Assembly: GCA_001767945.1 (NCBI GenBank)
Contig: MEMN01000042.1
Location: 34,931 to 67,432, forward strand
DNA: 32,502 nt
Direction of reading: 5' to 3'
From: Alphaproteobacteria bacterium RIFCSPHIGHO2_12_FULL_66_14
GTDB taxonomy: Bacteria; Pseudomonadota; Alphaproteobacteria; Reyranellales; Reyranellaceae
A program made the position numbers and the translations under genes. The notes under the pieces are model-generated. The model was not told the DNA's origin, searched no databases, and saw nothing but the letters and a program-made list of their open reading frames with translations. Positions 3,560 to 29,934 of this stretch are shown here, piece after piece. Within the stretch, counting starts at the first letter, position 1. Every line of letters begins with the position of its first letter.

Positions 3560-4858
3560 ATGGCCATTCTCGCCACCCTGGCTCTTTTCTTCGGCGCCGT
3601 GTTCGCCGTGTGTTGCGTGCTTCTGGCAGCCTTCATCGGCAGCCTGCTCTACATGGTGTTTCTGCACCATCGTCTGAAGGATGCCGGCCTGCACCGCGAG
3701 GAGATGCTGCTGTCCACGCCGTTGCCGGCCGACGCCGACCTGCCGCATGTCGTCGTGCAGATCCCGTCCTTCAACGAGGGGGCGGTGGTCCGTCGCGGCG
3801 CCGAATCGGCGGCTGCACTCGACTGGCCGAGCGACAAGCTGCATATCCAACTCCTCGACGACAGTACCGACGACACGGCCGAGATGGTCCGCGCAGTGGC
3901 GGCCGAACTCAAGGCCAAGGGTTTCGACGTAGTGGCGCTGCAGCGGTCCGATCGCAGCGGCTACAAAGGCGGCGCGCTGCACGAGGCGATGCAGAAGACG
4001 CCGCACGATTTTTTTGCGATCTTCGACGTCGACTACATTCCGCCGGCCGACTTTCTGCGCGTCTGCATGCGGCCGTTCTTCGCCGAGCCGAACACCGCGT
4101 TCGTGCAGGCCCGGTTCGACTTTCTTAATCCGTACGAGAATGCGCTGACCGAGATGCAAATGGTGACGCTCGACGCCCATCTCGGCATCGAGCAGGCGAC
4201 GCGCTGCTGGGCGGGCCATCCGCTGCCCTTCAACGGCACCTGCGGCATCTGGCAGCGCGCGGCCATCGAGGCCGGCGGCGGCTGGAAGGGCGATACCGTC
4301 ACCGAGGATCTCGACCTCACCTATCGCGGCTGGGTGAAGGGGTGGCGCGCGCTGTTCGTGACGAGCGTCGGCGTCCCGGGCGAACTGCCTGCCGACACCA
4401 AGACGTGGCTGCGCCAGCAGCAGCGCTGGCAGGACGGCTTCCGCCATGTCTCGATGCGCATGTTCCCGGAGATCTTGAAAAGCCGCACGATCACGCCGTC
4501 GGCCAAGGCCGCCGCGCTCCTGCACCTCTGCATGGCGCTCAACCAGCCGGTGCTGCTGGTCGGCGTGGTGTCCGGCCTGCTGGCGGCCCTGCTGGCGCCT
4601 CAGCTCATCCCGTTGCTGCTGACACTGTTTGTCATCACCGTCGTGTGGGTACTGATTTGCGCCACGACCTTCCTGCGCGCTGGCCATAACTTCATCCGGG
4701 GCGGCGAGATCCCGCCGCTCGCGTTCGGCGTGGTGCTGCTGCGCTTCGCTGGCGGCCAGGTGGCGACCGTCGTTCGGTCGCTCGGCGTCCATGTGAAGAA
4801 GGCCTTCAGCAAGCCCATGCCGGTCGTCTTCGACCGCACGCCCAAGAAGGGAGCCTAG
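3560..4858 (+). CDS. Family 2 glycosyltransferase, cellulose synthase/CslA-like membrane enzyme (paralog of upstream gene)
   Basis: QLLDDSTDDT, FDVDYIPP, TEDLDLTYR, QQQRWQDGF motifs; same TM layout as the upstream gene. Confidence 0.9.
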   Translation: MAILATLALFFGAVFAVCCVLLAAFIGSLLYMVFLHHRLKDAGLHREEMLLSTPLPADADLPHVVVQIPSFNEGAVVRRGAESAAALDWPSDKLHIQLLDDSTDDTAEMVRAVAAELKAKGFDVVALQRSDRSGYKGGALHEAMQKTPHDFFAIFDVDYIPPADFLRVCMRPFFAEPNTAFVQARFDFLNPYENALTEMQMVTLDAHLGIEQATRCWAGHPLPFNGTCGIWQRAAIEAGGGWKGDTVTEDLDLTYRGWVKGWRALFVTSVGVPGELPADTKTWLRQQQRWQDGFRHVSMRMFPEILKSRTITPSAKAAALLHLCMALNQPVLLVGVVSGLLAALLAPQLIPLLLTLFVITVVWVLICATTFLRAGHNFIRGGEIPPLAFGVVLLRFAGGQVATVVRSLGVHVKKAFSKPMPVVFDRTPKKGA

Positions 4859-5817
4859 CCCAGCACGCTTTCGCGTAACAGAGGATGATGGGCGCAGCGC
4901 AGGCCGCCGCCGGTCGAGATCGGACCATCGAAGGGCAGGGGGACTACGTCGATCCTGCGCCGGCGCAGTTCCTCGATCACGCGGGCATTGCCGGCATCGA
5001 TGATGGCGCGGCCCTCCTCGAGCACGAGAGCGTTGGTCGCGAGCAGGTTCGCTTCGTCTTTGGAAACGGTGATCGCATCCCAGTCGCGGAGCGATGTCGG
5101 CAGACCATCTATGAATTTTTCCGGACACCAGACGAGTAGGCCGGGTTTGATCAGGGCCAGCGCGCAGTCGAGATGAAGGACGTTTGACCTCATCGCGACC
5201 GGAATGACCCGGTAGCTATCGCCCAGTAGCGCTTGCAGCCAGTCGGCACCCGCGAGATCGGAGGCGCAGCCGGAAATCCCGACATAGATTTCATGGCCGT
5301 TCAGCAAGGTGTCGCCACCCTCGAGGAACGGGCCATCGACGCAGCCCGGCGAGCCGAGCGGCACGCTCGACCAGAGCGCGCCGCGCTGCTGCACGGCTTG
5401 CTGGATGATAGACCGCAGCCCGTAGCGTTCGCGTTGCCGGCATTTTAGGCGGAGCGAGGCATCGATCACGTGGTTGCCGACGACGATCATGCCGTCGCGC
5501 GGGAAGAGCTGCGCGCCTTCGCCGTTGGGGGCGAGGAACCTGCGTTCGTCACCCTTCAGCCGCTCCGGCCGGTGCACGGCAACGCCCTCGCGGGCAACCA
5601 ACTCGGCCAGCGCGTCGACCTGGTGTTCAATTAGGTGGGCCCATTCGGCGTCGACGTCGATCAGGCGGCGGCCGGCATGCTGGCGGCTGAACGTATCGCC
5701 CGGCGGGATCAACCAGCGCTGGGACTCTTCGTAGAAGACGACGAAATCTTCGGCCGGCGAGATGCCGATCACGACCTCGCGCAGCTTGCCCCATTCGTGA
5801 TGGGCGCCGAAGAGCAA
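4855..5817 (-). CDS. Amidinotransferase / arginine-modifying superfamily protein (glycine/inosamine-phosphate amidinotransferase-like)
   Basis: Likely TTG start at 5817 (MLFGAHHEWGKLREVVIG); EGGDTLLNG, NVLHLDCALALIKPG and GGGLRCAHHPLLR resemble the catalytic His and Cys regions of the guanidino-group modifying fold. Confidence 0.72.
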   Translation of the reverse strand: MLFGAHHEWGKLREVVIGISPAEDFVVFYEESQRWLIPPGDTFSRQHAGRRLIDVDAEWAHLIEHQVDALAELVAREGVAVHRPERLKGDERRFLAPNGEGAQLFPRDGMIVVGNHVIDASLRLKCRQRERYGLRSIIQQAVQQRGALWSSVPLGSPGCVDGPFLEGGDTLLNGHEIYVGISGCASDLAGADWLQALLGDSYRVIPVAMRSNVLHLDCALALIKPGLLVWCPEKFIDGLPTSLRDWDAITVSKDEANLLATNALVLEEGRAIIDAGNARVIEELRRRRIDVVPLPFDGPISTGGGLRCAHHPLLRESVLG

Positions 5818-5819
5818 CC

Positions 5820-7226
5820 TCAGACCCGGGCGTAGATGTCTTCGTAGCGGACGATGTCGTCCTCTTCGACATAGTCGCCGGTCTGGACCTCGACCACTTC
5901 CAGCAATTCGGAACCGGGATTGGCGAGGCGGTGGATGCCCCCAATTGGAATGTAGGTCGACTCGTTCTCGTGCAGGGTCATGATCTTGCCGTCGAGTGTC
6001 ACCTCGGCCACGCCTTTCACGACCACCCAATGCTCGGCGCGCCTGTTGTGGCTCTGCAGGCTGAGTTTGGCGCCGGGATTGACGGTCAGCCGCTTGGCGC
6101 GGAAGCGCTCGCCGCGGTCGATGTCCTGATAGCTGCCCCACGGGCGGTGCATCACGGCATGCTCGGTGGCCGCCCGGTGGTTGCCGTCCGACATGCGCTG
6201 AACGACGTCCTTCAGCCGCGGAAGATTGTCGCGATGTCCGACCAGGACGGCATCGTTCATCGACACGACAACGACGTCCTCGACGCCGATCACGGCGGTC
6301 AGCGGGCCGTCGGAGCGGATGTAGGAGTTGCGCACATGGTCGATCTCGACCGGCCCTTCGGTGACGTTGCCGGCGCTGTCGGCTTGGCCGACATCGAGCA
6401 GCGCGTCCCAGGTGCCGAGATCGGACCAGCGGAACCTCGCCGGCACCACCCAGCACTTGTCGGTGCGTTCCATCACCGCGTAGTCGATGGACTTCGCGGG
6501 CGCCTTGGCAAACGCCTCGGCATCGAGGAACACGGTCGAGCCGGTCTTCTTGGCCTTGGCCACGGCTTCTTCGGCGGCGGCGGCCATGGCCGGCTCGAAG
6601 CGCGCCATTTCGGAGAGCAGCACTTCAGGCGGAAACAGGAAGTTGCCGCTGTTCCACAGCAGGCCTTCGGCGATGTAGCGCAGTGCCGTCTGGGCATTGG
6701 GCTTCTCGACGAAGGCCTCGACCTTCTGAACCGGGCCGATGCGCTCGCTGCCGGGCCGGATGTAGCCGTAGTCGGTCTTGGGCTCCGTGGGCGGGATGCC
6801 GAAGGTGACGATGCCGCCCTGCTGGACGGCGGCAAGGCCTTCACGACAGCCGTCGCGGAATTCCTCGATGCCGATCACGAGATGGTCGGACGCGAGCGCC
6901 AGCACCGCCTTGGCTCCGAGGTTCCGCGCATAGGCCGCGGCGGCGGCCATGGCGGGCCCCGAATCGCGACGCGACGGCTCGACCAGGATGTCGATTTCTA
7001 CGCCGACGTCCTTGGCCTGCTTTTCAACCATGAACCGGTAGGCGTCGTTGGTGGCGATCACAGGGCGTGCAAACAAGCTACGGTCGGCGACCCGCTCGAG
7101 GGTCTGCTGGAAAGTCGAGTGCTTGCCCAAGAGCGGCACGAACTGCTTGGGCATGCTTTCGCGCGACAGCGGCCACAGTCGCTTGCCGGAGCCTCCGACC
7201 AGGATAACGGGTGTGATGAGCGACAT
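5820..7226 (-). CDS. manC: Mannose-1-phosphate guanylyltransferase / mannose-6-phosphate isomerase (bifunctional type II)
   Basis: N-terminal VILVGGSGKRLWPLSRESMPKQF pyrophosphorylase signature; C-terminal cupin HRPWGSYQDIDRGERFRAKRLTVNPGAKLSLQSHNRRAEHWVVV. Confidence 0.95.
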   Translation of the reverse strand: MSLITPVILVGGSGKRLWPLSRESMPKQFVPLLGKHSTFQQTLERVADRSLFARPVIATNDAYRFMVEKQAKDVGVEIDILVEPSRRDSGPAMAAAAAYARNLGAKAVLALASDHLVIGIEEFRDGCREGLAAVQQGGIVTFGIPPTEPKTDYGYIRPGSERIGPVQKVEAFVEKPNAQTALRYIAEGLLWNSGNFLFPPEVLLSEMARFEPAMAAAAEEAVAKAKKTGSTVFLDAEAFAKAPAKSIDYAVMERTDKCWVVPARFRWSDLGTWDALLDVGQADSAGNVTEGPVEIDHVRNSYIRSDGPLTAVIGVEDVVVVSMNDAVLVGHRDNLPRLKDVVQRMSDGNHRAATEHAVMHRPWGSYQDIDRGERFRAKRLTVNPGAKLSLQSHNRRAEHWVVVKGVAEVTLDGKIMTLHENESTYIPIGGIHRLANPGSELLEVVEVQTGDYVEEDDIVRYEDIYARV

Positions 7227-14004: not shown

Positions 14005-14027
14005 GTTGGGTAGAAATCAACGAGCAA

Positions 14028-15053
14028 ATGGGGGCTTCGATGAAACTGGGACGCAGGACGGCCTTGAAGGCAGGCGTGGGAACGGGTGCGGCGATGATGA
14101 TCGGTGCGCCATCGATGGTGGGTGCGCAGACGCCCGTCAAACTGCCGTTGTCGACGGTGTGGCCGGACGGCAACTTCCATACCGTCAACGCCAAGAAGTT
14201 CGCCGTGGAGGCGAAGAAGGCGACGGGCGGCGCCGTCGATATCGAGGTCAAGTCGGGCGGCCAGCTCGGCTTCAAGGGACCTGAACAGCTCCGTGCGGTG
14301 CGCGACGGCCTGGTGCCGATGGCCGACATCCTCAACATCCAGCAGATCGGCGACGAGCCGATCATGGGCATCGAGGGAATCCCCTTCCTGTGCAGCTCTG
14401 CCGACGACCTCAAGGTCCTGCACAAATATCTCCGGCCCATGTACGAGAAGGTCGCGTTGAAGAACAACCAGACCATCCTCTACATGGTGCCGTGGCCCAC
14501 GCAGTACCTTCACCTCAAGGTTAAGGCCGAGTCGGTCGATGCGCTCAAGGGCATCAAGATCCGTGTGCCCGACAAGAACGCGCAGGAAATGTGCAGTGCG
14601 ATCGGCATGGCGCCGGCGCTGATCCCGTGGGGCGAGACCATCGCCGCCCTGTCGTCCGGTGCGGTCGCCGGCGTGTCGACCTCGGCGGTGTCGGGCGTCG
14701 ACGGCAAGTTCTGGGAGTTCCTGAAGTTCTTCCACGCCACCAACCACGCCTGGTCGTCGCAGATCGTCACGATCAACAACGACACCCTGAAGAAGATCTC
14801 GCCCGCCAATCAGAAGGCGATCATGGACTTGGCCAAGAAGATGGAACCCGACTTCTGGGCGTCGTCGCTGCAGGCCGACAAGGACAGCGGCAAGAGGCTG
14901 ACCGAAGGCGGCATGCAGCTCGTGCCGGTCCCGGCGGCGATGATGGCCGAACTGCAGAAGCGCACCAAGCCGATGATCGCCGAGTACTACAAGCGGGTCC
15001 CGGCGGCCGAGGCGCCCATCAAAGCCTATCTCGCCGAAATGAAGCGCGCGTGA
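14028..15053 (+). CDS. TRAP transporter substrate-binding protein, DctP-like, with Tat-like signal
   Basis: RRTALKAGVG twin-arginine leader ending near GAQ; DctP family motif KGIKIRVPDKNAQEMCSAIG; alternative ATG at 14040; adjacent DctQ and DctM. Confidence 0.9.
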   Translation: MGASMKLGRRTALKAGVGTGAAMMIGAPSMVGAQTPVKLPLSTVWPDGNFHTVNAKKFAVEAKKATGGAVDIEVKSGGQLGFKGPEQLRAVRDGLVPMADILNIQQIGDEPIMGIEGIPFLCSSADDLKVLHKYLRPMYEKVALKNNQTILYMVPWPTQYLHLKVKAESVDALKGIKIRVPDKNAQEMCSAIGMAPALIPWGETIAALSSGAVAGVSTSAVSGVDGKFWEFLKFFHATNHAWSSQIVTINNDTLKKISPANQKAIMDLAKKMEPDFWASSLQADKDSGKRLTEGGMQLVPVPAAMMAELQKRTKPMIAEYYKRVPAAEAPIKAYLAEMKRA

Positions 15054-15634
15054 GCACGACGCCGGCGGGCCCGAACGCAGCGGCCACGGGGCTGCTGCGG
15101 ACGGTCCTCGATGGCATCGACAGACTTGGCCGGCTCGATGGCTGGTTGGGCGCCGCCTGTCTGTTCGCGCTTGCTTGTCTGATGTTGGCCGAGGTCGCCG
15201 TCCGGGCGCTTTCCGATATCTTCCCCTGGGTGCCGGCCGATATTCCGGTTGCCTGGGAGTATGGCTCGTATCTGATGGCCGGCGCTTTCACGTTCGGCGC
15301 CGCCATGACCCTGCGGGCTGGCGGCCATATCCGCGTCACCTTGGTACTGGCGCGCCTGTCGGCTGCTGCGCGTCGTTGGTTTGAAACCGTTCTGGCCGCA
15401 CTGGGTGTCGCCTTCACCGGGTTTCTCGCCTACGCCATGATCCGCTTTACGTGGCAGAGCTTCGACAGCGGCCGGACCTCGATCTCCAGCGACAGCCCGC
15501 TCTGGATTCCACAGGCTTTGGTGACGTTCGGCATCTGTCTGCTGCTCATGCAGTTCATTGCCCGACTGCTGCAGGCGTTGTTCGGCCTGCCGCTCGAGGA
15601 TCTCGGCATGCGCGCCGGCTCGAGCGCCGAATGA
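15050..15634 (+). CDS. TRAP transporter small permease, DctQ-like
   Basis: GTG start at 15050 overlaps the dctP stop; four hydrophobic segments; located between DctP and DctM. Confidence 0.85.
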   Translation: MSTTPAGPNAAATGLLRTVLDGIDRLGRLDGWLGAACLFALACLMLAEVAVRALSDIFPWVPADIPVAWEYGSYLMAGAFTFGAAMTLRAGGHIRVTLVLARLSAAARRWFETVLAALGVAFTGFLAYAMIRFTWQSFDSGRTSISSDSPLWIPQALVTFGICLLLMQFIARLLQALFGLPLEDLGMRAGSSAE

Positions 15635-15660: not shown

Positions 15661-16965
15661 ATGCTGATTGTCGTTCTCACCCTGTTCGTTGTGCTGTTCG
15701 CCTTCCTGGCGGGTGGCCTGTGGATCGGCTGGACGCTCGCCGCCACCGGCACGGTGTTGCTGGCGATCTTCCGCGACATACCGCTCGACAAGCTGCTGGC
15801 GCAGTACGCCTGGAACATCCTCACGACCCAGGAGCTGCTTGCGCTGCCGCTCTTCATCCTGATGGGCGAGATCCTGTTTCGGACCCGCCTGTCGCAGTCG
15901 CTGTTCCGCGGACTCGCCCCGTGGGCCGCGCTGCTGCCGGGGCGGCTGCTGCACGTCAACGTGATCGGCTGCACGATCTTCGCCGCCATTTCGGGCTCGT
16001 CGGCCGCGACGACCCAGGTGGTCGGCCGCATCTCGATTTCGGAGTTGACGAAGCGAGGTTACTCCCGGGACGTCGCCGTGGGTTCGTTGGCCGGGGCCGG
16101 CACGCTTGGCTTTCTCATTCCGCCGTCCAACATCATGATCATCTATGGCGTGTTGGGCGACGTCTCGATCGCCAAGCTGTTCACTGCGGGCTTCATCCCG
16201 GGGTTCCTGCTGGCAACGAGTTTCATGGTCTGGATCATGGTCCACACCGCGCTGCGCCCGGGATTGGTGCCGCCCGGCGAGCGCCGGATCAAGGTTGCGT
16301 CGGCGGCCGAGTACTTGGCTTCGCTGCGCGAGCTGGGGCCGGCCATTTTTCTCATCCTGTGCGTCCTGGGTTCGATCTACGGCGGTATCGCCACACCCTC
16401 CGAGGCGGCGGCCGTGGGTGTAATGGGCGCCTTCATCGTGTCCGGCCTGCAGCGCGAGCTCAATCCGACGGCGCTCCGCAACATCGCCATCGGGTCGGTG
16501 CAGACCTGTGCGATGATCGCGATGATCGTGCTGGGTGCGTCGATCCTGGGCAGCGCCACGGCGTTTCTCGGAATCCCCGCGGCCGTCGCCGAGTTCGTCG
16601 GCGGCCTGGGACTCTCGCCACTATTGCTGATCGCCGCGTTGATCGCCTTCTACCTGATACTCGGCTGCTTCCTCGACTGATTCAGCATGATCGTCATGAC
16701 CCTGCCTATCGTCATGCCGATCGTGAAGGTGGCGGGCTTCGATCCGCTTTGGTTCGGCATCTTCCTCGTGCTGGTCGTCGAGATGGCGCAGATCACCCCA
16801 CCGGTCGGCTTCAATCTTTTCGTCATTCAGGGATTGACCGAGGACGGGCTGGGCTACATTGCCCGCGTGACGATGCCGTACCTCCTGATCATGGTTACCT
16901 TCACGATGCTTCTGGCAGCCTTTCCCGACATTGCCCTCTGGCTTCCGCGCTACCTCAGCGGCTAG
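15661..16965 (+). pseudogene. TRAP transporter large permease DctM-like, interrupted by an in-frame TGA at 16678..16680
   Basis: 15661..16680 encodes DctM-like TMs up to ...LGCFLD; the same frame continues after TGA with FSMIVMTLPIVMPIVKVAGFDPLWFGIFLVLVVEMAQITPPVGFNLFVIQG, the normal DctM C-terminus, to a stop at 16963..16965. Confidence 0.85.
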
Positions 16966-16995: not shown

Positions 16996-18360
16996 ATGGA
17001 TCCGCGTCAGGTCAAGAATGCGGCGGATGCCCGCAAGATCGTCAAGGAACGCGGCCTGACGCACGTCAAGGTGGGCGTCCACGACATCGACGGCGTCCTG
17101 CGCGGCAAATACATCCACATCGACAAATTCCACTCGGCGCTCGAGGGCGGCTTCGGCTTCTGCGACGTGGTACTGGGCTGGGACTCCAACGACCAGCTCT
17201 ACGACAATGTCACCTACACCGGTTGGCACAGCGGCTATCCCGACGCCAACGTCCGCATCCTGTCTGACACCTGCCGCGAGATCGCGACGGAGCCGGGCAA
17301 CCTGATGTTCCTCTGCGAGTTCGTGGCCAAGGCGGAGGAGATCTGTCCGCGCGGCACGCTGCGTCGTGTGCTGGCCCGCGCGGCCAAGCTCGGCTTCGAA
17401 GTCAAGGTGGGCTTCGAGTACGAGTTCTTCGTCTTCGCCGAGACGCCGGAATCGATCCGCGAGAAGGGTTACAAGAACCTGAAGTCGATCTCGCCCGGCT
17501 TCTTCGGCTACTCGGTGCTGCGCAATTCGGTGCTGTCGGACTGGTATCAGGACCTGCTCGCCATGTGCGAGACCATGGATATGAGCATCGAGGGCCTCCA
17601 CACCGAGACCGGCGCCGGCGTGCTCGAAGCGGCGCTGCGCGTCGACGACGCGCTGGCTGCCGCCGACAAGGCCGCGCTGTTCAAGCTCTTCACCAAGGTG
17701 CTGGCGCAGCGGCGTGGCTGGCTCGCCACCTTCATGGCCAAGTGGTCGAAGGACTGGCCGGGGTGCGGCGGCCACATGCACATGTCGCTGTGGAAGAGTG
17801 GCAAGCCGGTCTTCTTCGACGAGAAGGCGCCCCATCGCATGAGCACGACGATGCGCCATTTCGTCGGCGGACAGCGGGCACTGATGCCGGAGACGCTGGC
17901 CATGGTGGCCTCGAACGTGAACTCCTACCGACGGCTCATTCCGGGTTTCTGGGCGCCGACGGACGCGACCTGGGGCGTCGAGAATCGCACCACGGCGTTG
18001 CGGGTCATTCCGGGTTCGGCCAAGTCGACCCGTGTCGAGTACCGGGTCGCGGCGGCTGATGCCAATCCCTACCTGGCGCTGGCCGCTGCGGTCGGCGCGG
18101 GCCTGTGGGGCATCGAGAACAAGATCGATCCGGGTGAGCCGATCAAAGGCAACTCCTACGCGGCCAAGCATCCGGTGAAGTCGCAATTGCCGCGCACGCT
18201 GATGGAGGCGGCCGGGCGGCTCAAGGGCTCCAAGCCGGCACGCGACCTGTTCGGCGACGCCTTCGTCGATCATTATTCCGCAACGCGTGAGTGGGAAGAG
18301 CGGGAGTTCCGCAAGGCCATTACGGACTGGGAACTCGAGCGCTACATGGAAATCATCTGA
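16996..18360 (+). CDS. Glutamine synthetase-like protein (possible gamma-glutamyl-amine/methylamide ligase)
   Basis: 454 aa; GS catalytic-domain features (HTETGAGVLEAAL, GCGGHMHMSLW, NSYRRLIPGFWAP, ENRTTALRVIPG, RVEYRVAAADANPYLALAA). Confidence 0.9.
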   Translation: MDPRQVKNAADARKIVKERGLTHVKVGVHDIDGVLRGKYIHIDKFHSALEGGFGFCDVVLGWDSNDQLYDNVTYTGWHSGYPDANVRILSDTCREIATEPGNLMFLCEFVAKAEEICPRGTLRRVLARAAKLGFEVKVGFEYEFFVFAETPESIREKGYKNLKSISPGFFGYSVLRNSVLSDWYQDLLAMCETMDMSIEGLHTETGAGVLEAALRVDDALAAADKAALFKLFTKVLAQRRGWLATFMAKWSKDWPGCGGHMHMSLWKSGKPVFFDEKAPHRMSTTMRHFVGGQRALMPETLAMVASNVNSYRRLIPGFWAPTDATWGVENRTTALRVIPGSAKSTRVEYRVAAADANPYLALAAAVGAGLWGIENKIDPGEPIKGNSYAAKHPVKSQLPRTLMEAAGRLKGSKPARDLFGDAFVDHYSATREWEEREFRKAITDWELERYMEII

Positions 18361-23676: not shown

Positions 23677-24543
23677 TTACGACGCGAGCCGCGTCGCCTC
23701 GTCCATGAAGGCCCGCACCAAGGCAACACGGCGGCGCTCCTGCAGGCAGAGCGCATATTCGGCGACCGCGAGATCGCCATCGGCGATGGCGATGCGCCTG
23801 AAGCGGCGGTCTTCACCGAGTTCGCTCGCGAACACGGCGCCGACGCCGAAGCCCGCCGCCACCGCCTCGCGCACGCCCTCGCGGGTCTGCACCTCGACGA
23901 TGGAGCTTGGCCGGACGTCGGCCGCCGCCATCGCCTGTTCCAGCACCTCGCGGGTGATCGAGCCGCGTTCGCGCAGCACCAGCTCCTGGCCGTTGAGGGC
24001 GGCGAGGGGGGCACGGCCTTTCTTGGCCAGCGGATGCCTGGCCGGCGCGAACAGCACCACCCGGTCGGTGCGCAGCCGGACGGCATGCAGGCGCGGGTCG
24101 GACACGCTCTTGGCCATGACGGCGACATCGGCCTCGTGGCGCAGCAGGCGTTCGAGCACCACGGCGGAATTGTCGATCGAAAGTGCGAAGGTGAGACCGC
24201 CGGCGCGTTTCCTAAGGGCCGCCATGATCGGCACGACATGATGCGCCGAATCGGCTGCAATCCTGAGATGGCCGCGGGTCAGCGCCTGCTCTCCCGCCAG
24301 CAGGGCGCGGGCTTCGTCGTTGAGGGCAAAAAGCCGCGTGGTGACGCCGTGCAACTGCCGGCCGGTTTCGGTGGGCGTGACCGAGCGGCCGCGACGATCG
24401 AACAGATGCACGCCGTAGGCCTTCTCCAACGCCGTCACCTGGCCGGAGAGATTGGGCTGGCTGAGGCCCGAGGCGCGGGCGGCGGCGGAGAAGGAGCCGG
24501 CCTCGGCCACGAGATGGAAAGCGCGGAGCTGGGTGGGCGTCAT
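23677..24543 (-). CDS. LysR-family transcriptional regulator
   Basis: N-terminal HTH MTPTQLRAFHLVAEAGSFSAAARASGLSQPNLSGQVTALEKAYGVHLFDRRGRSVTPTETG; divergent from phnW. Confidence 0.93.
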   Translation of the reverse strand: MTPTQLRAFHLVAEAGSFSAAARASGLSQPNLSGQVTALEKAYGVHLFDRRGRSVTPTETGRQLHGVTTRLFALNDEARALLAGEQALTRGHLRIAADSAHHVVPIMAALRKRAGGLTFALSIDNSAVVLERLLRHEADVAVMAKSVSDPRLHAVRLRTDRVVLFAPARHPLAKKGRAPLAALNGQELVLRERGSITREVLEQAMAAADVRPSSIVEVQTREGVREAVAAGFGVGAVFASELGEDRRFRRIAIADGDLAVAEYALCLQERRRVALVRAFMDEATRLAS

Positions 24544-24616
24544 ATATGTGAAACCTATAGGTAGCATATGGAATATATACTGGACGGATAGAAGACGCGA
24601 GCCGATCATCGCCGCC

Positions 24617-25771
24617 ATGACCACCCAGAAACCCGCCGCCTCCGAAACCGGCGATCCGCTGCTGCTGACTCCCGGCCCGCTCACCACCTCGGCCAGCGTC
24701 AAGCAGGCCATGGTCCACGATTGGGGCTCGCGCGATCAAGGATTCATCGCCATCAACAAGATGGTGCTGACGAAGATCGTCGAACTGGCTGGAGGGCAGG
24801 GGACTCACGTCACCGTGCCGGTCCAGGGTTCCGGCACCTTCGCCGTCGAGGCGATGATCACCTCCTTCGTGCCCAAGACCGGCAAACTCCTCGTCCTGAT
24901 CAACGGCGCCTACGGTCAGCGGGCCAGGAAGATCGCCGAGATCGCCGGCCGCGCCGTCGCGACCCATGAGACGCCCGAGGACACGCCGCCCGATCTCGCC
25001 AGGCTCGAAGCGATGCTGGTGGACGACAAGGCCATCACCCATGTGTTCGCTGTCCATTGCGAGACCACCTCCGGCATCCTCAATCCCATCGCCGAGATCG
25101 CCGCGATCGTGGCCAAGCAGGGCCGGCGCCTGCTGGTCGATTCGATGAGCGCTTTCGGTGCGATCGAGATCGACGCCCGCAAGATCCACTACGACGCGCT
25201 CGCCGCCTCCTCGAACAAGTGCCTCGAGGGCGTGCCGGGTCTCGGCTTCGTGGTTTGCCGCAACACCGTATTGGCCGAGTGCAAGGGCAACGCCACCACC
25301 CTGGTGCTCGACCTGTTCGACCAGGCCGATGGCTTCGCCCGGACCGGCCAGTACCGCTTCACGCCGCCGATCCACGTCATCGTGGCGCTGGGCAAGGCGA
25401 TCGAGGAGCACGCGGCCGAGGGCGGCGTCGCCGGACGCGGCAAGCGCTACTGCGACAACGCCAGGGTGCTGATCGACGGCATGCGCGCCATGGGCTTCCG
25501 CACGCTGCTGCCCAACGAGCTGCAGGCACCGATCATCGTCACCTTCCACATGCCGACCGATCCCAAGTTCGTCTTCCAGCGCTTCTACGATGGGCTGAAG
25601 GACCGCGGCTACGTGATCTACCCCGGCAAGCTCACGGTGGCCGACTCCTTCCGCATGGGCTGCATCGGCCGCTTGTGCCCTGAGCACATGAAGGGCGCCC
25701 TTGCCGCCGTCCGTGAAGTCCTGGACGAGTTGCGTGTCAGTAACGGCGGCCCGGCCCTGGCAGCGGAGTAG
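24617..25771 (+). CDS. phnW: 2-aminoethylphosphonate--pyruvate transaminase
   Basis: LLTPGPLTTSASVKQAMVHDWGSRDQGF start and PLP-Lys region AASSNKCLEGVPGLGFVVCR; linked to phnA and phnY. Confidence 0.93.
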   Translation: MTTQKPAASETGDPLLLTPGPLTTSASVKQAMVHDWGSRDQGFIAINKMVLTKIVELAGGQGTHVTVPVQGSGTFAVEAMITSFVPKTGKLLVLINGAYGQRARKIAEIAGRAVATHETPEDTPPDLARLEAMLVDDKAITHVFAVHCETTSGILNPIAEIAAIVAKQGRRLLVDSMSAFGAIEIDARKIHYDALAASSNKCLEGVPGLGFVVCRNTVLAECKGNATTLVLDLFDQADGFARTGQYRFTPPIHVIVALGKAIEEHAAEGGVAGRGKRYCDNARVLIDGMRAMGFRTLLPNELQAPIIVTFHMPTDPKFVFQRFYDGLKDRGYVIYPGKLTVADSFRMGCIGRLCPEHMKGALAAVREVLDELRVSNGGPALAAE

Positions 25772-27019
<1,248 letters not shown>

Positions 27020-28468
27020 ATGGATACGATGATCCGCGGTGATGTGCGCAATGAATACCTCCGCATCGCCGGCAAGAAGGTCGAGACCAAGGCGCGCCTC
27101 GAAGTGCGCTTCCCCTGGGACAACCGTCTGGTCGGCACCGTGCCGCGTGCCACGCCCGACCTTGTGGCCCAAGCCTTCCGGATCGCCCATGCCTACAAGC
27201 CCAAGCTGACGCGTTATCAGCGCCAGCAGATCCTGCTCAAGACGGCGGACCTGCTCGTCGCGCGCAAGGAGGAACTCTCCCGTCTCATCACCCTCGAGTC
27301 GGGCCTGTGCCTGAAGGACTCGCTCTACGAGGTCGGCCGCGCCTACGACGTCTTTACCTTCGCGGGCCAGCTCTGCCTGTTCGACGACGGCCAGACCTTC
27401 TCCTGCGACCTCACCCCGCACGGCAAGCCGCGCAAGATCTTCACCCTGCGCCAGCCGCTGAACGCCATCAGTGCCATCACCCCCTTCAATCATCCGCTCA
27501 ACATGGTCGCACACAAGCTGGCGCCGGCCTTTGCCACCAACAACTGCGTCGTGCTGAAGCCCACGGAACTCACGCCGCTCACCGCGCTGTTCCTGGCCGA
27601 CACGCTCTACGAGGCGGGCCTGCCGCCGGAAATGCTGTCGGTCATCACCGGCAATCCCTCCGACATCGGCGACGCCATGATCACGGATCCGCGCGCCGAC
27701 CTCATCACCTTCACGGGCTCGGTCCGCGTCGGCAAATACATCGCCGACAAGGCCGGCTACAAGCGCATCGTCCTCGAACTCGGCGGTAACGACCCGCTGA
27801 TCGTCATGGAGGACGCCGACCTCGACAAGGCGGCCGACCTCGCCGTCGCCGGCGCCACCAAGAACTCAGGCCAGCGCTGCACGGCGGTGAAGCGCATCAT
27901 CGTGGTCGACAAGGTGGCCGACGCCTTCGTCGAGCGCGTGCTGGCCAAGGCCAGGAAGCTCAAGGCAGGCGACCCGCTCGATCCCGAGACCGACGTCGGC
28001 ACCGTGATCCACGAACGCGCCGCCACCCTGTTCCAGAACCGCGTCAGCGAGGCGGTCGCCAAGCATGGAGCGAAGCTCTTGCACGGCAACGACCGCCGCG
28101 GCGCGCTGTTTCCGCCCACCGTGGTCGACCATGTCGATCCCACCTGCGAACTGGTGCGCGAAGAAACCTTCGGCCCGGCGATCCCGATCATCCGGGTGAA
28201 GGACATCGACCACGCCATAAGAGTGTCCAATGGCACCGCCTATGGCCTCTCCTCGGGCGTCTGCACCGATCGTCTCGACTACATCACCCGCTTCGTCGAC
28301 GAACTGCAGGTCGGCACGGTGAACATCTGGGAAGTGCCGGGCTATCGCATAGAAATGTCGCCCTTCGGCGGCATCAAGGATTCGGGCCTCGGCTACAAGG
28401 AAGGCGTGCTGGAGGCGATGAAGAGTTTCACCAACGTGAAGACCTGGTCGCTGCCCTGGCCCGGTTAG
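27020..28468 (+). CDS. phnY: Aldehyde dehydrogenase, phosphonoacetaldehyde dehydrogenase type
   Basis: ALDH motifs [18 protein letters not shown] and [12 protein letters not shown]; starts at the base after the phnA stop, giving the phnW-A-Y order. Confidence 0.9.
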
Positions 28469-28492
28469 AGGCCGCGCCCGAGCCCGCCTGCA

Positions 28493-28513
28493 ACCTCCAC
28501 GACCCGTGGAGGT
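28493..28513. other. Inverted repeat: 9-bp perfect stem, 3-nt loop (ACCTCCACG-ACC-CGTGGAGGT)
   Basis: Read directly; 24 nt after the phnY stop; no T tract. Confidence 0.85.
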
Positions 28514-28584
28514 CCGATGTTCGCCGCTTCGCCCCGCAAAGCCTTGAAAATCCTCCAAAATCCTCCTTCGGCTGGGGACGGTCG

Positions 28585-28608
28585 ATGCGCGGTAGAACCG
28601 CGCATTTT
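28585..28608 (+). terminator. Putative intrinsic terminator: 9-bp stem ATGCGCGGT-AGA-ACCGCGCAT followed by TTTT
   Basis: Perfect inverted repeat 28585..28605 with a short T run, downstream of phnY. Confidence 0.55.
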
Positions 28609-28736
28609 CAAGAATAGGATTTCGGGTCCACCGGCGGTCGCGCGACACGCGCAGAGGACCGCGGTGAGAATCCGGGTGCATTCATCAAAAAGAACATATA
28701 GAGAACATCGGCAGAGTTCAAGCCCAGGAGGAACAT

Positions 28737-29096
28737 ATGGCCGATCCGAAGACCTATTCAGGCGCCTGCCACTGCGGTGCCGTGGCCTTCACCGTCGATC
28801 TCGATCCGACGACCGCGCTCAAGTGCAACTGCACGATCTGCAGCAAGCTGGGCGCTGTGTGGGCCTTCGCGCCCAAGACCAAGTTCAAGCTCATGGCGGG
28901 CGAGACGAAGCAAGGCGACTACCAGTTCGGCAAGAAGGCGCTGCACCACCGCTTCTGCACGGCGTGTGGCGTCGAGAGCTACGCCGAGGGCACGGCACCC
29001 GACGGCACCGCCACGGTCGGCATTAATCTTCGTTGCATCGAGGGCATCGATATCGACAAACTGAGGCCGCGGCCGTGGGATGGCCGCAGCATGTAA
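28737..29096 (+). CDS. GFA-family (glutathione-dependent formaldehyde-activating-like) zinc protein
   Basis: CHCGAVAFTV, CNCTICSKLGAVWAF and FCTACG Cys motifs; strong AGGAGG upstream. Confidence 0.9.
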   Translation: MADPKTYSGACHCGAVAFTVDLDPTTALKCNCTICSKLGAVWAFAPKTKFKLMAGETKQGDYQFGKKALHHRFCTACGVESYAEGTAPDGTATVGINLRCIEGIDIDKLRPRPWDGRSM

Positions 29097-29109
29097 GGGG
29101 AAACTTCCG

Positions 29110-29934
29110 ATGAGTGTCAGTCAGGCCGACAAGGCCAGGAAATTGCGTGCCCTGCACGAGGCGCCGCGTGCCTTCGTCATTCCCAATCCGTGGGACGGCG
29201 GCTCGGCCCGGATACTGGCCGGCCTCGGCTTCGAGGCGCTGGCGACCTCGAGCGGCGCCAAGGCCGGCGTGCTGGGCAAGCGCGACGGCAAGGTCACGCG
29301 CGAGGAGGCGCTGGCCAACGCCCGGATGATCGCCGAGGCGGTGGACGTGCCGGTGATCGGCGATCTCGAGAGGGGTTTCGGCGATTCGCCCGATGCGGCG
29401 GCGGAGACGATCCGGCAGGCGGCGGGCGTCGGTCTGGTCGGCGGCTCGATCGAGGACGCGACCGGCAACAAGGGCAAGCCGCTCTATGACATCGCATCGG
29501 CCGCGGAACGTGTCGCTGCGGCGGCGAAGGCCGCCCGTGCGCTGCCGTTCGCCTTCGTGCTGACTGCCCGCGCCGAGGGTTTTCTGCGCGGCTCTCCCGA
29601 CCTGGATGACGTGATCAAGCGCCTAAAAGCCTTCGAGGCGGCCGGCGCCGACGTGCTGATGGCGCCGGGCCTGCCCGATCTCGCCGCGGTCAGGAAGGTG
29701 TGCGGCGCGCTCGAGAAGCCGTTCAACTTCATGGCCGGCATCAAGGGCAAGTCCTTCAGCGTGGCCGAGCTCGAGGCCGCGGGCGTGAAGCGCATCAGCC
29801 TTGCCACCTCGCTCTATCGCGCGGCGATGACTGGTCTTCTAGACGCGGCCAAGGAAGTGAAGGAGAAGGGCACGTTCGGCTATCTCGACCACTCGACGCC
29901 GACACCCGAGCTGAACGCCTTCATGAAGGAATAG
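29110..29934 (+). CDS. Isocitrate lyase/PEP mutase superfamily protein
   Basis: FVIPNPWDGGSARILAGLGFEALATSSGA, VIGDLERGFGDSPDAAAETIRQAAGVGLVGGSIED, VLTARAEGFL; superfamily layout clear, specific reaction not assignable. Confidence 0.87.
   Translation: MSVSQADKARKLRALHEAPRAFVIPNPWDGGSARILAGLGFEALATSSGAKAGVLGKRDGKVTREEALANARMIAEAVDVPVIGDLERGFGDSPDAAAETIRQAAGVGLVGGSIEDATGNKGKPLYDIASAAERVAAAAKAARALPFAFVLTARAEGFLRGSPDLDDVIKRLKAFEAAGADVLMAPGLPDLAAVRKVCGALEKPFNFMAGIKGKSFSVAELEAAGVKRISLATSLYRAAMTGLLDAAKEVKEKGTFGYLDHSTPTPELNAFMKE

Follow-up and report, generated by a model that had tools for sequence, protein, structure and literature searches.

The gene for the large permease subunit of a TRAP transporter, dctM (15661-16965), is interrupted at codon 340 by an in-frame TGA without a frameshift, and this stop is private to the source genome, being shared by no relative examined. 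We put at about 95% the probability that the private single-base change is a nonsense mutation of recent date or a population variant, or else an error in the consensus. By judgement rather than computation, we take recent nonsense mutation, or variation within the population, as the probable origin of the TGA allele, and assign a smaller, though considerable, share to an incorrect base in the assembly.

Gene layout around the interrupted dctM

The window, that is, the whole 32,502-nt stretch of DNA analysed, contains an operon with the gene order dctP-dctQ-dctM, followed by a glutamine-synthetase-type gene (Table 1). The start codon of dctQ is a GTG overlapping the dctP stop. When the dctM frame is read through the TGA, it yields one 434-aa protein that scored 355.7 bits against TIGR00786 in a profile search, above the curated cut-off of 268.45, and the first piece alone also scores above this value. 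Since the two pieces match consecutive stretches of the profile, nothing is missing or shifted. Both the reread frame and the profile coverage confirm the preliminary description, which had reported a TGA splitting dctM without a frameshift; its placement of an ATG 6 nt past the stop, opening a 92-aa ORF, is equally accurate.

Table 1. Features of the TRAP operon and the adjacent downstream gene, in window coordinates.
Feature	Position	Strand	Remarks
Putative dctP, TRAP periplasmic substrate-binding protein	14028..15053	+	Open; start at 14028 or 14040; assignment suggested by signal-like start, sequence and operon position
Putative dctQ, small permease subunit	15050..15634	+	Open; assignment suggested by size, hydrophobicity and place between dctP and dctM
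dctM 5' part including the in-frame TGA, 339 aa	15661..16680	+	TIGR00786 positions 1-315 of 405, 277.7 bits
In-frame TGA, codon 340	16678..16680	+	Gly in 80/80 orthologues, GGA in the nearest
dctM remainder, 92 aa from ATG, ending in TAG	16687..16965	+	TIGR00786 positions 320-405; ATG is the conserved Met343
Putative glutamine-synthetase-type gene, downstream of dctM	16996..18360	+	Open frame; name suggested by sequence recognition

Two further regions of the window were noted. Clustered at 24452-29934 are class-V aminotransferase, type I phosphodiesterase, aldehyde dehydrogenase and PEP mutase-type genes that may serve phosphonate or related catabolism. A 533-aa ORF on the minus strand (4855-6456), weakly matching arginine deiminase at residues 317-443 (29.8 bits), extends over the 3' end of a ManC-type gene (5820-7226); the true start of the ORF's gene is probably internal.

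Origin and age of the stop codon

Codon 340 encodes glycine in all 80 dctM orthologues fetched from named genomes (69 GGC, 6 GGG, 3 GGT and 2 GGA), none of which carries an internal stop. The position of the TGA inside a conserved gene, at a codon that is invariably glycine in these orthologues, makes it more than a chance occurrence. In the nearest relative, L031 (JAUXWB010000438.1), exactly this codon is GGA. L031 shares 97% protein identity with the source genome in dctM and 92.6% DNA identity over 7.9 kb, a span with only two indels, at 14012 and 14025, both between genes. The best 29 matches in related genomes, of which 19 are orthologues at 82-92% and ten are relatives at about 50-57%, also have Gly at codon 340 and no stop, although this set shares several records with the 80 orthologues and the two are not independent. 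The source genome, that of an environmental Reyranella-type bacterium, has Reyranella metagenome-assembled genomes as its nearest named relatives. With GGA in L031 and Gly in all relatives examined, a single G-to-T change explains the TGA. Among glycine codons, GGA alone can become TGA by one substitution, so that an ancestral GGA allowed the change in a single step where the usual GGC would not have done so. The GGA-to-TGA substitution proposed in the preliminary description thus gains strong support.

Some distant DctM paralogues of related genomes had been scored as containing an internal stop. Six were re-aligned: in five the stop was the natural C-terminal end (query position 433), and in the sixth (L120) the alignment ends before any stop.

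The substitution pattern on the source-genome branch bears on the age of the stop. The part of dctM before it accumulated 22 synonymous and 2 nonsynonymous changes, and the part after it 3 and 1, respectively. Had the 3' part evolved without constraint after the divergence from L031, about 15 nonsynonymous changes would be expected by a rough calculation, against the 1 seen (P for one or fewer about 4e-6). The relaxed selection after the stop that an old pseudogene should display was not found. The lack of decay in the 3' part means that the stop is either recent relative to the L031 split or absent from the cells. The downstream glutamine-synthetase-type gene has a dN/dS of 0.084 against L031.

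Absence from the cells, which would then carry GGA misrecorded by a consensus or assembly error, is one part of the best explanation and a tentative one. It is favored by the ordinary constraint on the remainder of dctM and by the state of the source genome, a fragmented draft of 4.46 Mb in 242 contigs, 89% complete. Two genes outside the window also look frame-shifted, which fits either error or decay. A CoA-transferase III gene (contig C227:9988-11087) consists of two pieces in different frames, 23 nt apart and covering profile positions 1-145 and 154-366, as expected from either a frameshift-like disruption or an error, and an ABC ATPase domain (contig C9:23534-23870) lies in two adjacent pieces, again in different frames. 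Other possibly disrupted genes therefore exist in this genome. Against a base error stands a genome-wide search of five families, in which the dctM TGA was the only in-frame stop among 228 matches (25 DctM, 29 TctC, 9 aldehyde dehydrogenase, 128 ABC ATPase and 37 CoA transferase III), so that such errors are not common.

Decoding of UGA and restart downstream of the stop

It is most improbable that the source lineage alone inserts an amino acid at this UGA or makes a working split DctM from the two pieces. The same TGA in independent genomes, named in the preliminary description as a sign of recoding or of a split protein, was looked for and found in none of the 80 orthologues, and the conservation that marks programmed UGA recoding is accordingly missing from this set.

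Readthrough of UGA, whether by selenocysteine insertion, a suppressor tRNA or a leaky stop, would produce full-length DctM, and the conserved 3' part with its single nonsynonymous change would fit a decoded stop. Nevertheless, this reading is very improbable, as several lines of evidence oppose it. Neither tRNA-Sec nor SelB gave a match over the cut-off in the 89% complete source genome; weak matches to the tRNA-Sec model were tRNA-Ser, Cys and His according to ARAGORN. No UCA anticodon, which would decode UGA, occurs among the tRNAs read, which cover all but two of 33 tRNA matches in an incomplete set. The fold of the RNA downstream of the TGA is no stronger than that of its shuffled versions (z -0.67), giving no sign of a SECIS-like or readthrough structure. 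Relatives all have Gly rather than Cys or Sec at this codon, and none has the stop. Finally, TGA terminates 13 of the 21 further genes inspected in the window, in conflict with an alternative code in which UGA means Gly and TGA is unused as a terminator; the earlier view that global UGA recoding is unlikely holds.

A functional two-piece DctM, with termination at 16680, reinitiation at ATG 16687 and assembly of two subunits, is more doubtful still. The in-frame ATG 6 nt past the stop would suit it, but this ATG is the codon for Met343, which is kept in 80/80 uninterrupted orthologues; it thus predates the stop and is there for coding reasons. No purine-rich ribosome-binding motif is present before it in TGCTTCCTCGACTGATTCAGC, the upstream TTCCTCGACTGATTCAGC has none either, and the ATG shows no sign of being a designed restart. 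Moreover, the break would lie within the HPout hairpin, close to the Na2 site, and the split form occurs in no relative examined. Among the four origins raised in the preliminary description, recent mutation and sequence error therefore remain, while stop readthrough and a 92-aa piece made by termination-reinitiation gain no support.

Predicted effect on transport and comparison with known systems

On the preferred reading, a G-to-T substitution private to the source draft genome changed dctM codon 340 from GGA to TGA, translation would end there, and a large part of the transport domain's second half would be missing from the 339-aa product. In Photobacterium profundum SiaM, the Na2 sodium site is formed by G325 in the HPout loop, G366, T369 and M372, and the T369A change alone leaves about 3% of transport (PMC9971032). 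In a gap-free alignment to SiaM (7qha_B), on which the Na2-equivalent positions were counted by hand, codon 340 lies five residues past the G325 equivalent. The latter, G335, is retained before the stop, and the equivalents of G366, T369 and M372 (A376, T379 and V382) all follow it. The standard-code product ends at residue 339 and so does not hold both halves of the transport domain together with the two sodium sites in a single chain. With a large portion of the second transport repeat and all but one of the four Na2 residues missing, it should be inactive in transport, as judged from sequence, and the transporter would be lost in whatever cells carry the TGA allele. Such a loss could be tolerated, since the source genome has about twenty further DctM genes, the most similar of them at about 51% identity. 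If real, the stop would represent a very recent loss of one among some twenty TRAP transporters. In annotation, dctM of this draft is best marked as interrupted and should not be cited as evidence for recoding or split subunits.

UGA is read as glycine in SR1/Gracilibacteria (NCBI code 25). The interrupted dctM resembles selenocysteine or UGA-as-glycine recoding in having TGA where relatives have Gly, but differs in that a single codon is affected, TGA is an ordinary terminator and no Sec machinery was found; both recoding and a working split DctM are most unlikely. With the DctM family (TIGR00786 / PF06808) it shares a full-length match when read through and the dctP-dctQ-dctM order, differing by one private in-frame TGA at codon 340. 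The gene is also like a bacterial pseudogene formed by nonsense mutation, with a single substitution, an otherwise intact gene and a stop that is not conserved; it differs in showing no secondary decay yet and in that a base error is possible. The case is one of a private nonsense change in an otherwise ordinary transporter gene and most probably involves no new decoding.
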